From a bacterium (GTDB lineage Bacteria > Vulcanimicrobiota > Xenobia > Xenobiales > JADMJV01): DNA of 64,000 nucleotides. The first letter of the stretch is position 1, and every line of letters begins with the position of its first letter. Below, piece by piece: positions 9,959 through 24,037 of this stretch. The position numbers and the translations under genes were made by a program. The notes under the pieces are model-generated. The model was not told the origin of the DNA. It searched no databases and worked only from the letters and a program-made list of their open reading frames with translations. The stretch spans positions 1 through 64,000 of the forward strand of contig JAFEBA010000069.1 of the NCBI GenBank assembly GCA_018266105.1, written 5' to 3'.

Positions 9959-10336
9959 TAAGTTAGCTGGACGGTCGCGGGGCGGTGCATCATCGCCTTG
10001 AGGAAAGTCCGGGCTCCCAAGGGCAGGACGCTGGATAACGTCCAGTGAGGGCGACCTCGAGGATAGTGCCACAGAAATGTGAACCGCCGTTCCTTGGAGC
10101 GGTAAGGGTGCAACGGTGGGGTAAGAGCCCACCAGCGGCACGGTGACGTGCCGGCTAGGTAAACCCCGTCCGGGAGCAAGACTCATTCGGAGGCGGAGAC
10201 AGCAATGTCTCCCCTGGCGGCTCGTCAGGCTGCCTTCGAGTATGTTGCATCAGGCGGGCGGTAACGTCCGTCGCAGAGAGATGACCGTCAACAGTTCGCT
10301 GTGACAGAACCCGGCTTATAGGCTGACTTGCTAGAG
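9959..10336 (+). ncRNA. rnpB: RNase P RNA, bacterial type A
   Basis: This is the catalytic RNA of the tRNA 5'-processing ribonuclease. The conserved 5' P4 strand and following core GAGGAAAGTCC-GGGCTC starts at 10000. The internal block with AGAGCCCACCAGCG lies at about 10124-10138, and the GGTAAACCCC region at about 10158. The 3' core ACAGAACCCGGCTTA is at 10304-10318. P1 is closed by AGTTAGC near 9961 against GCTGACT near 10322. Length of about 375 nt suits type A. The 5' leader CCCTCTA can also pair with TAGAGGG of the following terminator, extending or competing with P1. Confidence 0.95.
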
Positions 10337-11952: not shown

Positions 11953-13049
11953 CTGGCGTAAAAACGTCGCAGGCGGGATGCAAGCCAGGCCGCAGCCTGG
12001 CTATTTGAGGTTCGTCCGGTGATGATGCATGCATCCGAAATTAGCTGCAGGTGAGCTCCTCGGGTGGACTGGCGCACCCAGATCTCCTCGAGTTGATCAG
12101 CCGGGATGCTGGCCGACCAGATGGGCACCCCCCAGAGTCGGTCCCGGGCATCTAGACTCTTGCGAGTGGCGCGCAGCTCCTTGCCATAGCCAAACAAAAA
12201 GAAAGCGGTGGTCAAAACGATGGCGCCGCTTACGTAGAAGTAGAGAAACTGGTGATTCAGCCGGGCGAAGTCTAAAAACGAGAGCTGAAAGCGCTCCACT
12301 GACTCCTGGCCAGGATTGTGTCGCGGAAAAATGGGCACCACCGCCAACAAGAACACGAAAAGCACCAGCGTGAAAAACTCGTTCAACATGGCTGGACTGG
12401 CCAGCCGCCAGGTGTAGCGCTGGCTATTCTCGTCCTCGTCATATTCGAAAGGACAGGGATCGGGCTTGGGAGCCTCCCCGCCCAACAGCTCCGGCTGCTT
12501 GCGCACCCGATCCCGAAAAGGAAGATCGAGCTCCTCGCGAGGAATCAAAATCTCGCCGGTCTCGGCCTTCTCCAAAACCGGACAGTTGATGCTTTTGGCC
12601 AGTGCTTCAGCCAGGGAGCGACTCTCGATGTGATGGCCCAGGCGTCTGTCCAGCACGTATTGACGTTTACCGTCGACCAGATTGACCAGCCAGAACTCCA
12701 GAACGTTGGGCCCACGCTCTTCTTCCTGAGAGCGCAGCCGGATCATCGGCTCGCCTTCCCAGTGATAGCGCAGGCCTCGCTTGATCCAGCCATCCTGAAC
12801 GCGAATGCTCTTGCCATCCAGCCAGAAGCGCTTGCGCGTATAGCGGATCAAAATAAAGCCCACCACGACCAGGGCGATACCGGCTGGCGAAGCCACGTCC
12901 ACCCAGCCTGCATCGGGATAAACCCGATCGAGCAGGCCGCGCACGGGGAAACTCAGAGCCAGCCCCAGGAAAATCAAGAAGAAGCCGAGATCATTATTGC
13001 TCTGCGAAGGAATCGAAATGACCCCTAGCGAGTTTTTGGTGACGCTCAT
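11949..13049 (-). CDS. Unrecognised integral membrane protein coupled to the FlhB/FlhA-like fusion
   Basis: A 366-residue protein with two N-terminal hydrophobic helices (~20-40 and ~50-68). A cytosolic domain follows (~70-215) rich in charged residues, then two more helices (~228-246 and ~270-290). A C-terminal soluble domain ends the protein (RATRKSLDARDRLWGVPIWSASIP...). Its ATGA start overlaps the stop of the upstream FlhB/FlhA-like fusion gene, so the two are almost certainly co-transcribed and translationally coupled. I recognise no family. The pairing suggests it may anchor or receive the fusion protein at the membrane, which is inference only. Confidence 0.65.
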   Translation of the reverse strand: MSVTKNSLGVISIPSQSNNDLGFFLIFLGLALSFPVRGLLDRVYPDAGWVDVASPAGIALVVVGFILIRYTRKRFWLDGKSIRVQDGWIKRGLRYHWEGEPMIRLRSQEEERGPNVLEFWLVNLVDGKRQYVLDRRLGHHIESRSLAEALAKSINCPVLEKAETGEILIPREELDLPFRDRVRKQPELLGGEAPKPDPCPFEYDEDENSQRYTWRLASPAMLNEFFTLVLFVFLLAVVPIFPRHNPGQESVERFQLSFLDFARLNHQFLYFYVSGAIVLTTAFFLFGYGKELRATRKSLDARDRLWGVPIWSASIPADQLEEIWVRQSTRGAHLQLISDACIITGRTSNSQAAAWLASRLRRFYAS

Positions 13050-14248
13050 AGACCCCCCAGCGTGGTAAAGACGTGCACGTCCGCGTCCGGAGCCACTTCC
13101 GGATATGATAGGACCGGAAGCTGCGGAAAGGATGGTTCAACCAGGCGTTTTACGAAGCGCCGAGCGCGAGGCCCGCACAGCAGCACAGGCCTGAAACCCT
13201 GATCCTGAGCCTTTTCCCAGGCGCGCGCGACTCCACCGAGCAGACGCAAGCTAACGTCAACATCGAGGTCGAACCAGATGGCCGAGGATGCCTGGCGCAC
13301 GTCCTTAAGAATGCACTTTTCCAGCTCGGGAGCCAGCAGCATTGCCTGCACCACCCCTTCTGAGTCAGAATACTCCCGACAGAGCTGAAAATTGAGCGAA
13401 GCCCGAACAAACTCGGTCAACTGGTCGGGATCGGCGGACCGGTTCTTGTGTTCCTCGATGGCTTCCAAAATCGGCACCAGCTCGCGAATGCGAATCCCTT
13501 CGCGTAAGAGGTTCCGCAGAATCTGACGCAGACCCGAAACCGTGAGAAAGGTGGGAAAAAGGGCCTGGTAGAGGTTTTTGTGAGACTTGCGCAGTCCATC
13601 CACCAGCGCCTGAGTCTCGCGAAACCCCAGCAGACGGTGGGCGTTGCCTTTGACCACTTGATGCATTCCGGCCATCAGCTCACCGAAATCGGGCCCGGTC
13701 CATTGGAAAAGGGCTGACCCCTGCATCAAAATCTGGCCATCGTTGGCCAAATCCGGGACATGGCTGAGGGTCACGGCCAGTAGCGGCAGGCCCAATTCTT
13801 TTTGCAGCCGATGCCGATGCAGGGTGGTCAACGCCTCGACCGGCAGAAGCCATTCAGCCTGACGCAGCTCGATAGCCAACCGAGATTCTTCCAGTAGCTG
13901 TGTGGCCTTCGCCTTTGAACGGGGGCGCAGGTCTTTCACCAGGCGCACCGGCATCGGACCCGGGCGGCTACGCTGAACCATTGCGATGGCCTGAGCGGCC
14001 GGACGAAAAAGACTGTCGGGAATATCCTGCCCGGGCAACAGATTTTGCACGCTTTCACTGGAGATCTCAGCGCACTCAACCACTGGAACGCCCAGTTCCT
14101 GAGCAGACCACAAGAGCTCCAGGGCCTGCTCTCCCGCCAGATTGGCCACGATCGCCGGGGTTTCGCCCGGTAAATAGGACAATGCCAGCACTTGCCTGTT
14201 TGGCGCCAGCAGCACAACCTCGGTCTGACTCAGTGTAGAAGGGTCCAC
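13046..14248 (-). CDS. Soluble fusion of FlhB C-terminal-like and FlhA C-terminal-like type III export domains
   Basis: This is a protein of about 400 residues in two parts. Residues ~5-90 read like the FlhB/EscU cytoplasmic domain: TEVVLLAPNRQVLALSY aligns with the strand carrying the NPTH autocleavage site. GVPVVE and GQDIPDSLFRPAAQAIAMV match the following helices. The NPTH is replaced by APNR, so autocleavage should not occur. Residues ~100-400 resemble the FlhA/EscV C-terminal domain (LRQILRNLLREGIRIREL, PILEAIEE, LTEFVRASLNFQLCREY, FPQLPVLSYPEV). No membrane domains are present. GTG 14248 is chosen because it starts just before the FlhB-like strand and lies downstream of a promoter. A longer frame runs into the divergent RNA gene and is rejected. 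Confidence 0.8.
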   Translation of the reverse strand: MDPSTLSQTEVVLLAPNRQVLALSYLPGETPAIVANLAGEQALELLWSAQELGVPVVECAEISSESVQNLLPGQDIPDSLFRPAAQAIAMVQRSRPGPMPVRLVKDLRPRSKAKATQLLEESRLAIELRQAEWLLPVEALTTLHRHRLQKELGLPLLAVTLSHVPDLANDGQILMQGSALFQWTGPDFGELMAGMHQVVKGNAHRLLGFRETQALVDGLRKSHKNLYQALFPTFLTVSGLRQILRNLLREGIRIRELVPILEAIEEHKNRSADPDQLTEFVRASLNFQLCREYSDSEGVVQAMLLAPELEKCILKDVRQASSAIWFDLDVDVSLRLLGGVARAWEKAQDQGFRPVLLCGPRARRFVKRLVEPSFPQLPVLSYPEVAPDADVHVFTTLGGL

Positions 14249-14311
14249 TGCCAGAATTGTTGCCGATCGAGGCGCAAAGTCCTGGGGTGTTCGGGAACAA
14301 ATTCTGAACTT

Positions 14312-14341
14312 ATTGTAAACGAAACACCAAGTGCTTGACAG
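14312..14341 (-). promoter_or_regulatory. Leftward promoter for the FlhB/FlhA-like fusion gene
   Basis: On the minus strand the -10 is TACAAT (14312-14317) and the best -35 is CTGTCA (14336-14341) with an 18-bp spacer. The -35 overlaps the -35 of the rightward promoter almost entirely, so polymerase could not use both at once. Confidence 0.6.
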
Positions 14342-14363
14342 AGTCTCCGGCCGAGCATAGGAT
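14335..14363 (+). promoter_or_regulatory. Rightward sigma-70-type promoter of the 1.2 kb structured RNA
   Basis: A perfect -35 TTGACA (14335-14340), a 17-bp spacer and TAGGAT (14358-14363) predict transcription from about 14370. No open frame with a plausible start and Shine-Dalgarno follows on this strand until past the terminator at 15573. Confidence 0.75.
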
Positions 14364-14877
14364 GCAGACCTCAGCCCGCAAGGCTGACGCTTCAACAAGC
14401 GTAAGAGTTGACGCACCACTGAGCGCACAAGTGGGGGTAACTTGCAGACCACAGCAAGTTGGAGAGTGATGGCTCCACAATCTGCCTTCATCATCCCGAT
14501 CCCGAAATGGTCGTAGTGACCTTTTGGAATGGGAGGTGCTGTCTCGAACCTTAGAGACAGGGGTCGCTGACGCCCTGAGTGCAGCCGTCTTGCGCGGACC
14601 GTAAATCGCGTAAGGACCGGCCCTCCAAGCGGAACCGCGAGGAGAAACGCGTTACTGAAAGGTGACAAAGACGTTGGAGTAAGCCGGGAACCTGGAGTGG
14701 CGACCAGGGGGCTCTGATTGAGCCTGAAATCAATCAGGGGTAGCGTGCAAACCACAGTCACGTGGTCGGATTACAGCGACGCAAAACTTGTAATGAGGTC
14801 TTCGTAAACGGATGCGGAGTCGAGAGACGAAATGACTGGTGCGGTAAAAAGCCCCGGTCGAACGCAAGCCCTGCGAA

Positions 14878-14951
14878 GGAGCCTGGCGTAGGAGGTCGGC
14901 AGCCAGGGGGCCCTGATACAGCCCGGATGTTTCAGAGGTAGCTTGCAGACT
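14878..14951 (+). repeat. 74-nt perfect direct repeat, copy 1, in the structured RNA
   Basis: This unit spans H1, H2 and the 5' side of H3 of one module. It is identical base for base to 15037-15110; after three differing bases, the shared sequence resumes as GCAAGCCGT. Confidence 0.95.
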
Positions 14952-15036
14952 TGAGCAAGCCGTCCAATCCAGAGGGCGAAGCGAATCGAAAGCTAGATGG
15001 ATGAGGCTCATAGCGGACTCTTCGGATTCCAATGTG

Positions 15037-15110
15037 GGAGCCTGGCGTAGGAGGTCGGCAGCCAGGGGGCCCTGATACAGCCCGGATGTTTCAGAGGTAG
15101 CTTGCAGACT
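15037..15110 (+). repeat. 74-nt perfect direct repeat, copy 2, in the structured RNA
   Basis: Second identical copy, offset by 159 nt from the first. The differing trinucleotide falls in the H3 loop, so both copies keep the same hairpin. Confidence 0.95.
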
Positions 15111-15539
15111 AAAGCAAGCCGTTGCGCTCATTCAACGAGAGTCAAACCTTGGACAAGTGAGAGAGGCCTCGAGCCCGATTGGGAGCCGTAAGGCAGAATG
15201 GATACGTGTTGAAGCGCGTAGACACCCGGTCTGATCGCTCATCTTACTGGAGATGAACGAATGGCTTGAGGAGCCCGGTGCAGGAGGGTACGGCGACCGG
15301 GGGGCTACTGTCCCAGCCCGAAGGGGAACAGGGGTTGCTTGCAGACCAGAGCAAGTCGGTGAGTTACAGCACCGAAAGCGAAGTGAAGCGCTGTAAAGAG
15401 GCTGTTGAAGAGTCCGGAGACCGTGAGGTTCAAGACGCGATTCGCGGGGACGTCCTGACAAGGACCGAAAGCGAAGCGCCCTCTGGAAGAAACTCAGTCA
15501 ACAGGGTCTGGTGTAGGTGGGATGGCTGCCAGACAATAG

Positions 15540-15573
15540 AAAAAGCCGCTTGTGAAAATCAAGCGGCTTTTTT
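15540..15573. terminator. Bidirectional terminator between the structured RNA and the 15573-16142 gene
   Basis: A 9-bp stem AGCCGCTTG / CAAGCGGCT is flanked by A5 on the left and T6 on the right, so it can end transcription in both directions. The last base of the T-tract is also the last base of the minus-strand gene's TGA stop. Confidence 0.92.
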
Positions 15574-16142
15574 CATTTCTGCTTCCACTTTACCACCAGA
15601 GCCAGCCCATCGTCCTCTCGTATCTGGTAGCGTTCCCAACGGGGCTTCAGCGCGGCGCACTCCTTCCAAAGGGCCTCGACCGGACCCGGCAACTTGGGTC
15701 GGCCGCCCAGCAACCTGGCCAGACCACCCCTGTGCAACCAAGCATCCAGCCGGTTCATCCAGGTCATTGGACAGATGCGCTGGTAGTTCTCCACTTTAAA
15801 ATCGTTCTTCAGCCATTCCTCCAGCGTTCGAAAAGATGGGGGGCCTTGCTTGCGCAGGGTCGGGTAGCGGTCGGGGTTCTGGGCCAGTTCTTCTTGCAGG
15901 GCGTGGCGCAGGTCAATCCACTGGAAGCTCAGACGAACCAACTGGACCTCACTCTTGCCCTGATCGGCCGCCGAGACGGTGTGACTCTGCAGTTGTTCTT
16001 GAGCCAGCCGCACCCGCTGCATGGCGCGATCATCCGCCGCGCCTTCCTGGCTGCGCCAGGCGTTGGCCATCAGCAGGTCTTTCTCGCGAGAGGCAGCGTC
16101 TCGTGCCCTCCTGGCCCGAGACTCCAACTTAGAGACGTCCAC
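15573..16142 (-). CDS. Unrecognised helical, charged protein
   Basis: About 189 residues from a GTG at 16142; the frame is open further upstream to 16268 but would then overlap the divergent EEP gene by over 100 bp. The N-terminal half is strongly helical and charged (KLESRARRARDAASREKDLL, MQRVRLAQEQLQSH), likely coiled coil. The C-terminal half is Trp-rich (LEEWLKNDF, CPMTWMNRLDAWLHRGG, ALVVKWKQK). I recognise no family. The start is uncertain: an alternative at ATG 16214 would add a hydrophobic, Leu-rich leader that could act as a signal peptide. Confidence 0.5.
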   Translation of the reverse strand: MDVSKLESRARRARDAASREKDLLMANAWRSQEGAADDRAMQRVRLAQEQLQSHTVSAADQGKSEVQLVRLSFQWIDLRHALQEELAQNPDRYPTLRKQGPPSFRTLEEWLKNDFKVENYQRICPMTWMNRLDAWLHRGGLARLLGGRPKLPGPVEALWKECAALKPRWERYQIREDDGLALVVKWKQK

Positions 16143-23574: not shown

Positions 23575-23651
23575 CGGAGCGTAGCGCAGCCTGGTAGCGC
23601 ACCTGCTTTGGGAGCAGGGGGCCGCCGGTTCGAATCCGGCCGCTCCGACCA
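23575..23651 (+). tRNA. tRNA-Pro (anticodon UGG)
   Basis: A 77-nt cloverleaf: acceptor CGGAGCG / CGCTCCG, anticodon loop with TGG, T-arm GGTTCGAATCC, and encoded CCA. Confidence 0.97.
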
Positions 23652-23657
23652 GAGTGG

Positions 23658-23733
<76 letters not shown>

Positions 23734-23749
23734 AAAGTTGAATATTTGT

Positions 23750-23827
23750 GGTGAGTGTAGCTCAGTTGGTCAGAGCACTGGTCTGTGGAACCAGGGGTCG
23801 GGGGTTCAAGTCCCCTCACTCACCCCA
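23750..23827 (+). tRNA. tRNA-His (anticodon GUG)
   Basis: A 78-nt tRNA with the extra G at position -1 opposite C73, typical of tRNA-His. Anticodon loop CTGTGGA gives GTG; acceptor GTGAGTG / CACTCAC; encoded CCA. Confidence 0.97.
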
Positions 23828-23836
23828 CTAAATTGC

Positions 23837-23911
23837 GGGCCGCTAGCTCAGCGGTAGAGCAACCGGCTCTTAACCGGTTGGCCGTAGGTTCGAATCCTAC
23901 GCGGCCCACCA
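23837..23911 (+). tRNA. tRNA-Lys (anticodon CUU)
   Basis: A 75-nt cloverleaf: acceptor GGGCCGC / GCGGCCC, anticodon loop CTCTTAA, encoded CCA. Confidence 0.97.
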
Positions 23912-23915
23912 AAAC

Positions 23916-23951
23916 GAATGCGGGGGAGGCATCATTGTCGCCCCCGCATTC
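23916..23951 (+). other. Strong hairpin between the two tRNA-Lys genes
   Basis: An 11-bp perfect inverted repeat GAATGCGGGGG / CCCCCGCATTC with a 14-nt loop. There is no T-tract after it, so it is not a normal terminator. It may be a processing or attenuation structure in the tRNA precursor. Confidence 0.8.
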
Positions 23952-23962
23952 ATAAGAGCTCC

Positions 23963-24037
23963 GGGCCGGTAGCTCAGTGGTAGAGCATCCGACTTTTAAT
24001 CGGGTGGTCGCGGGTTCGAATCCCGCCCGGCCCACCA
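23963..24037 (+). tRNA. tRNA-Lys (anticodon UUU), integration target
   Basis: A 75-nt cloverleaf: acceptor GGGCCGG / CCGGCCC, anticodon loop CTTTTAA, encoded CCA. Its 3' half, from the anticodon arm on, is duplicated at 28982-29030, marking this gene as the attachment site of the adjacent element. Confidence 0.97.

Follow-up and report, generated by a model that had tools for sequence, protein, structure and literature searches.

Positions 14335 to 15580 of the window, that is, of the whole 64,000-nucleotide stretch of contig JAFEBA010000069.1 (assembly GCA_018266105.1) that was analysed here, form an apparent non-coding transcription unit in an uncultured bacterium of the Eremiobacterota, a phylum now named Vulcanimicrobiota by NCBI. 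The unit consists of a sigma-70-type promoter, six repeats of a hairpin module and a terminator, and transcription is predicted to start at ~14370. Comparison of genome sequences places this region, as one gene among several, in a new family of long non-coding RNAs that are built from modules and occur in multiple copies in Eremiobacterota; the family, together with its predicted structure, can be considered nearly certain. An initial annotation of the locus, made from the sequence without database searches, had described a TTGACA/17 bp/TAGGAT promoter and a strong terminator enclosing ~1.2 kb free of genes. We found both signals, and no convincing protein-coding gene between the promoter and the terminator of this copy. 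The 'five to six' modules of that annotation agree with our count: a covariance model places five, starting at 14386, 14687, 14878, 15037 and 15270, and one diverged module (~14534-14590), missed by the covariance models, was recognized through its linker-loop hairpin.

A module contains hairpins H1, H2 and H3; H4 is the hairpin after H3, with a loop predicted to pair with a strand that immediately precedes a GAGGC-like anchor. The features of the window copy are listed below, with model scores (R1, R2) in bits.

14311-14329, plus strand: conserved box TATTGTAAACGAAACACCA, 5' of the promoter, common to several paralogues in the aligned upstream regions
14335-14363, plus strand: sigma-70-type promoter read from the sequence, TTGACA (14335-14340), 17 bp, TAGGAT (14358-14363)
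14386-14462, plus strand: module 1, a 5' variant with AGCG-type loops in H1 (14392-14411) and H2 (14416-14434), and with H3 (14441-14458); R1 27 bits, R2 39 bits
14534-14590, plus strand: module 2, diverged, with linker AGGTG, H2 (14539-14560, CTGTCTC-GAACCTTA-GAGACAG) and an H3-like hairpin; linker-loop pairing AGGT/ACCT
14687-14766, plus strand: module 3 (H1, H2, H3); R1 63.9 bits
14765-14794, plus strand: predicted H4 pseudoknot of module 3, stem 14765-14768/14777-14780, loop 14769-14776 pairing with 14788-14794 (ATTACAG/TTGTAAT), then GAGG
14878-14963, plus strand: module 4 (H1, H2, H3), repeat D1; R1 91.6 bits
14961-15007, plus strand: predicted H4 pseudoknot of module 4, loop 14966-14973 (ATCCA) pairing with 14998-15002 (ATCCA/TGGAT), then GAGGC
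15037-15122, plus strand: module 5 (H1, H2, H3); R1 91.3 bits
15120-15161, plus strand: predicted H4 pseudoknot of module 5, stem 15120-15124/15133-15137, loop CTCATT (15127-15132) pairing with AGTGAG (15156-15161), then AGAGGC
15270-15359, plus strand: module 6 (H1, H2, H3); R1 75.6 bits
15357-15402, plus strand: predicted H4 pseudoknot of module 6, stem 15357-15361/15370-15374, loop TTACAG pairing with CTGTAA (15391-15396), then AGAGGC
15506-15534, plus strand: H1-like 3'-terminal hairpin GTCTGG...CCAGAC with AGGTGGGATGG in the loop, read from the sequence
15535-15577, plus strand: rho-independent terminator, arms 15535-15552 and 15560-15577 (inverted repeat I2), with a T run

Modules 4 and 5 are 98% identical over 86 nucleotides, and the model detects 5 modules in the window copy and 5, 5, 6 and 4 in its orthologues, which indicates that modules are gained and lost.

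A multicopy family in Eremiobacterota

The family was collected by DNA search of relatives, after which a covariance model was built from 44 module copies. It comprises 45 copies, distributed over six Eremiobacterota genomes, of which five belong to one genus and one to another family of the same order. The window's genome carries 8 copies (that is, 7 paralogues in addition to the window copy, which the initial annotation did not report), the congeners 7, 10, 7 and 7, and the distant genome 6. By DNA search, each of the four congeneric genomes contains the region, and one genome of the other family has a weak match. Two more gene starts were found in one congener (G004; L122 and L123, at the end of C105 and the start of C149), with both contigs stopping just past the promoter; breaks at this point suggest that similar copies disrupt the assemblies and that the copy numbers are lower bounds.

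When the phylum was scanned, 6 of the 149 genomes matched, the same with either of two models, and a pattern scan of named genomes produced matches in metagenome-assembled genomes of Candidatus Eremiobacterota, in MAG_50 and in 'bacterium CPR1'. Single pattern matches outside the order, in Rhodoferax and Desulfogranum, look like chance (13.5 bits, E-value 0.15, or nothing with R2) and were not accepted as relatives. The scanned phages, plasmids and viral contigs contained no match to the family.

In agreement with the initial view that the RNA belongs to no known family, the Rfam search at gathering thresholds gave no match for the window copy or the representative paralogues scanned, and at a permissive threshold only chance-level matches were obtained, on this stretch and on 13 other loci. 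The search works, given that RNase P RNA and tRNAs were recognized elsewhere in the window. The family covariance models of group I and II introns, RNase P, tmRNA and riboswitches likewise had no match in the window copy or the paralogues scanned, and searches of an open-access literature library turned up no report of an RNA of this kind from Eremiobacterota. The RNase P RNA of the window (class A, bacterial; 9959-10334, plus strand, 281 bits) lies ~4 kb upstream of the element.

Covariation and folding of the RNA

Compensating stem changes between copies, proposed at the outset, turned out to be far above chance. Among 44 modules aligned with MAFFT, an alignment not fitted to the structure, double-sided changes affect 13 of the 20 pairs, in 110 cells versus 32 in shuffles. 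For 123 distinct modules, in an alignment that was fitted to the structure and hence leans towards it, 19 of the 20 pairs have double changes, with 525 compensatory cells versus 143 +/- 14 in shuffles. The consensus of 15 whole genes, whose derivation from the very alignment used to test it favours the structure, has 255 pairs, 93.5% of them canonical, and 94 pairs with double changes; sliding the partner by 1-3 columns leaves 22-36. Also covarying in this alignment is the helix of the H1-like 3'-terminal hairpin (columns 1226-1255), which is present at the 3' end in most family copies read. The folding energy is below that of shuffled sequences (z = -4.9 for the window copy, with 24 dinucleotide shuffles, and -3.8 for the short form). 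Taken together, these comparisons lend strong support to the predicted RNA structure.

A module of chained pseudoknots

By the same kind of evidence, the module is a chain of putative pseudoknots, in which the loops of H2 and H3 pair with the adjacent linker and the loop of H4 with a strand just downstream. These three interactions, which the initial annotation had not noticed, are absent from every model used. The H2 loop is complementary to the linker 5' of H2 (mean 9.66 versus 7.76 +/- 0.17 on swaps, z = 11.3), with three or more Watson-Crick pairs formed by 108 of 124 modules and 24 different pairings, such as GGGC/GCCC, GGAC/GTCC, GGGT/ACCC and CGCT/AGCG; in module 1 of the window copy, loop AGCGT is complementary to linker ACGCT. 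Base 5 of the H3 loop covaries with the first base of the H2-H3 linker (of 117 modules, 84 have G-C and 29 have A-U), and this is the top unmodelled column pair by mutual information. For H4, an anchored test on 59 distinct units gave a mean of 10.59 versus 6.84 +/- 0.28 on strand swaps (maximum 7.97 of 2000; z ~13, an optimistic value since the anchor was picked after examples had been seen), and an earlier unanchored test showed a weaker separation, 12.29 versus 11.00 +/- 0.19. The CTCATT/AGTGAG pair of module 5 also occurs in the orthologue L025. The swap and shuffle controls correct only partly for sequence relatedness, so the z values serve as a guide; a stronger argument for the pseudoknots comes from how varied the complementary pairs are.

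The loop consensuses given initially, AGCCYGRA and AGAC..., are correct. They appear conserved because loop C residues pair with G-rich linkers, such that internal pairing largely explains the conserved loops. Kissing between the H1, H2 and H3 loops inside the module was rejected, the complementarity being at chance level and no better than that of swapped pairs.

No sign of coding, and recurrent transcription signals

Alignments of eight close pairs of copies contain 78 gaps, of which 72 have a length not divisible by three, and the substitutions have no codon phase; the open frames are not the same between orthologues. Covarying conserved structure along with the lack of a conserved reading frame is the general criterion for a large structured bacterial non-coding RNA, and both were found, as expected if the region encodes the structured non-coding RNA initially proposed.

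The signals that delimit the window copy recur across the family. A promoter captured by one regular expression (TTGAC, 15 to 20 positions, TAnnnT) is located upstream of 39 of the 45 members, and terminator-like sites are found downstream of ~40. The pattern of the upstream box, five positions and TTGAC has 13 matches in the five congeneric genomes and none in the reversed control; 11 of these sites precede described family copies, and the other 2 are at contig ends that cut the gene. The box may be a sign of common regulation and not of shared descent.

Paralogue groups and genomic neighbourhoods

The copies of the genus sort into nine groups by similarity and position. The neighbours of groups A (to which the window copy belongs), C, D, F and H are conserved across most or all species of the genus, and they differ by group: an FlhB/FlhA-like fusion gene in A, a SpoIIE-type phosphatase in D, truB in F, an Fe-S protein and a PLD protein in H, and peptidases in C, as well as in E. 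These differences between groups speak against a common target gene and indicate that the RNA acts in trans, which we consider very probable. In groups B, E and G, the RNA is ~80-86% identical at non-matching neighbourhoods, and no transposase was present among the neighbours tested.

The position next to FlhB/FlhA-like genes, to which the initial annotation had drawn attention, holds in orthologous group A and in none of the other groups, a restriction that had gone unnoticed, and a general link between the RNA and this gene was rejected. In the window, the gene (13046-14290, minus strand) encodes a 414-amino-acid protein that combines the C-terminal domains of FlhB/SctU (residues 21-105) and FlhA/SctV (residues 206-403), with the membrane parts absent. 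Its orthologue in the distant genome (G006), 44% identical, has no module within 1.5 kb.

In each of the five genomes, group F is divergently oriented to truB (L071, 6601-7524, plus strand), and in G000 a gene for an RsuA-like S4 pseudouridine synthase (L073, 6677-7369, minus strand) lies next to the group I copy. A link to pseudouridine synthases was not adopted because the other groups lack such a neighbour and coincidence is possible. Short tandem repeats (GCTCCACCCAGCGACGACTCCCCCGTGGAGC...) follow the group C terminator in G000 on its 3' side (L024, 6850-7253), reaching the contig end.

Comparison with known large RNAs

The family appears to be new in RNA class and architecture, although the broad kind, large structured bacterial non-coding RNAs of unknown function, is already known. 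Its closest known counterparts are GOLLD, ROOL and OLE, which are large, ornate and obscure in function. GOLLD shares the large size and high degree of structure, ROOL the ornate fold, multiple pseudoknots and lack of a known protein partner, and OLE the ornate fold and large size. Rfam matches to these families are absent here, and we know of no repeated modules in OLE; unlike GOLLD, the present family is modular, multicopy within a genome and without a phage match, and unlike ROOL, it is chromosomal, modular and variable in module number. ROOL, 659 nucleotides long in the solved example, is borne by phages and prophages, often near tRNA islands, and GOLLD, ROOL and OLE all form homo-oligomers according to cryo-electron microscopy (PMC12286853); OLE, an ornate RNA of ~600 nucleotides, is a ribonucleoprotein component in Bacillus halodurans (PMC9723947). 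Membership in the three families was rejected given that their covariance models found no match in the window or the paralogues scanned, at gathering as well as permissive thresholds, and the initial view of an architecture unlike theirs, with its repeated modules, stands. The setting of GOLLD and ROOL also differs, considering the lack of phage, plasmid and viral-contig matches and the distance of 8 kb to the nearest tRNA cluster in the window. This cluster consists of five tRNA genes (23575-24034, plus strand).

Possible function

The initial annotation had deliberately kept the function broad, as that of a scaffold, a sponge or a regulatory RNA. The reading that we favour, with a probability of roughly one half, is a trans-acting, multivalent structural RNA, the modules of which are binding or assembly units; a multivalent scaffold or assembly role in particular falls slightly short of even odds. 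Each module would fold autonomously as such a unit, up to six per molecule, and the RNA would gather multiple copies of a single partner, be it a protein, a different RNA or the RNA itself, into one complex. The gain and loss of modules combined with conservation of the module itself points to a multivalent role: variation of the module number between orthologues is expected for repeated binding units. Several observations weigh against this interpretation. The family is known here from genome sequences alone, the stems and pseudoknots vary and few conserved bases are exposed, so that a role of shape only also fits, and the non-syntenic groups B, E and G imply that some of the members may just be mobile. 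Furthermore, the short paralogues of group F (~450 nucleotides) have a single full module, and multivalency is thus not essential for every member.

A protein sponge, in which the modules would titrate an RNA-binding regulator as CsrB and CsrC do for CsrA, is an unlikely alternative that nevertheless has several features in its favour. Like CsrB, CsrC and RsmZ, the RNAs combine repeated hairpins in one transcript with a promoter and terminator of their own, there are multiple paralogues, and the H1 loops are G-rich and often contain GGA. The modules here, however, are pseudoknotted multi-hairpin units, and three pseudoknots per module would hardly be needed for a sponge. GGA occurs in the H1 loops of only 75 of 124 modules, and csrA does not track the RNA: it was detected in G000, G004 and G005, the last of which lacks the RNA, and not in the RNA-carrying G001, G002, G003 and G006, that is, in four of the six genomes with the RNA, one of these four being only 82% complete. 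A CsrB-type sponge for CsrA is accordingly disfavoured; a sponge for some other regulator is possible. Across the 15 genomes of the order, csrA was detected in those three, including 2 of the 5 of the genus. At the terminator, the CsrC model reached 11.8 bits in the permissive scan, its gathering score being 61. Still less probable appears an assembly of RNA alone, in which loop contacts would join molecules into an oligomeric cage, ring or filament, as in GOLLD and ROOL. The ornate pseudoknotted fold and the absence of a recognizable partner gene, as described for ROOL (PMC12286853), would suit such an assembly, and repeating modules suit polymerization, but many of the conserved loop bases able to kiss another molecule already pair within the module, the loops of H1-H2, H1-H3 and H2-H3 are no more complementary than expected by chance, and the variable module number argues against one fixed closed cage.

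The remaining explanations are more remote. Trans-acting genes with sigma-70-type promoters and terminators would be compatible with antisense-type regulation, with loops base-pairing to mRNAs; this is improbable, given that the variable loops change together with their linker or downstream partner, as internal pseudoknots do, which argues against action through those loops, that conserved single-stranded seeds are not evident, and that 0.45-1.7 kb is far above the usual length. Slightly weaker still is the case for a relocating genetic element spreading as a promoter-to-terminator unit. It would account for the similar RNAs of groups B, E and G in non-matching neighbourhoods, where draft assemblies may also misplace copies, whereas groups A, C, D, F and H occupy the same location in most or all members of the genus, neither a transposase among the neighbours tested nor a match in phages, plasmids or viral contigs was found, and the dense covariation reveals selection on the RNA. 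A protein-coding or cis-regulatory leader region is hardly credible: long minus-strand open frames exist, as expected at this G+C content, but the gap and codon patterns described above contradict coding, and the unit has its own terminator, with a convergent gene downstream.

More tentatively, the family could represent a new class of RNA machine, with tandem linker-loop pseudoknot modules and six to ten trans-acting paralogues per genome building an intracellular multivalent RNA or ribonucleoprotein assembly without a counterpart among the described bacterial RNAs. Large structured bacterial RNAs are rarely newly found, and GOLLD, ROOL and OLE were recently shown to form unexpected RNA-only complexes. 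The architecture predicted here is unlike theirs, with loops that pair with their own flanking strands, 1-6 modules per molecule and 6-10 genes per genome. Because the repeats provide an internal alignment, the fold is unusually well defined, and a single module of ~130 nucleotides is directly tractable to probing or structure determination. The variable number of modules amounts to a natural experiment on the purpose of the repeats.
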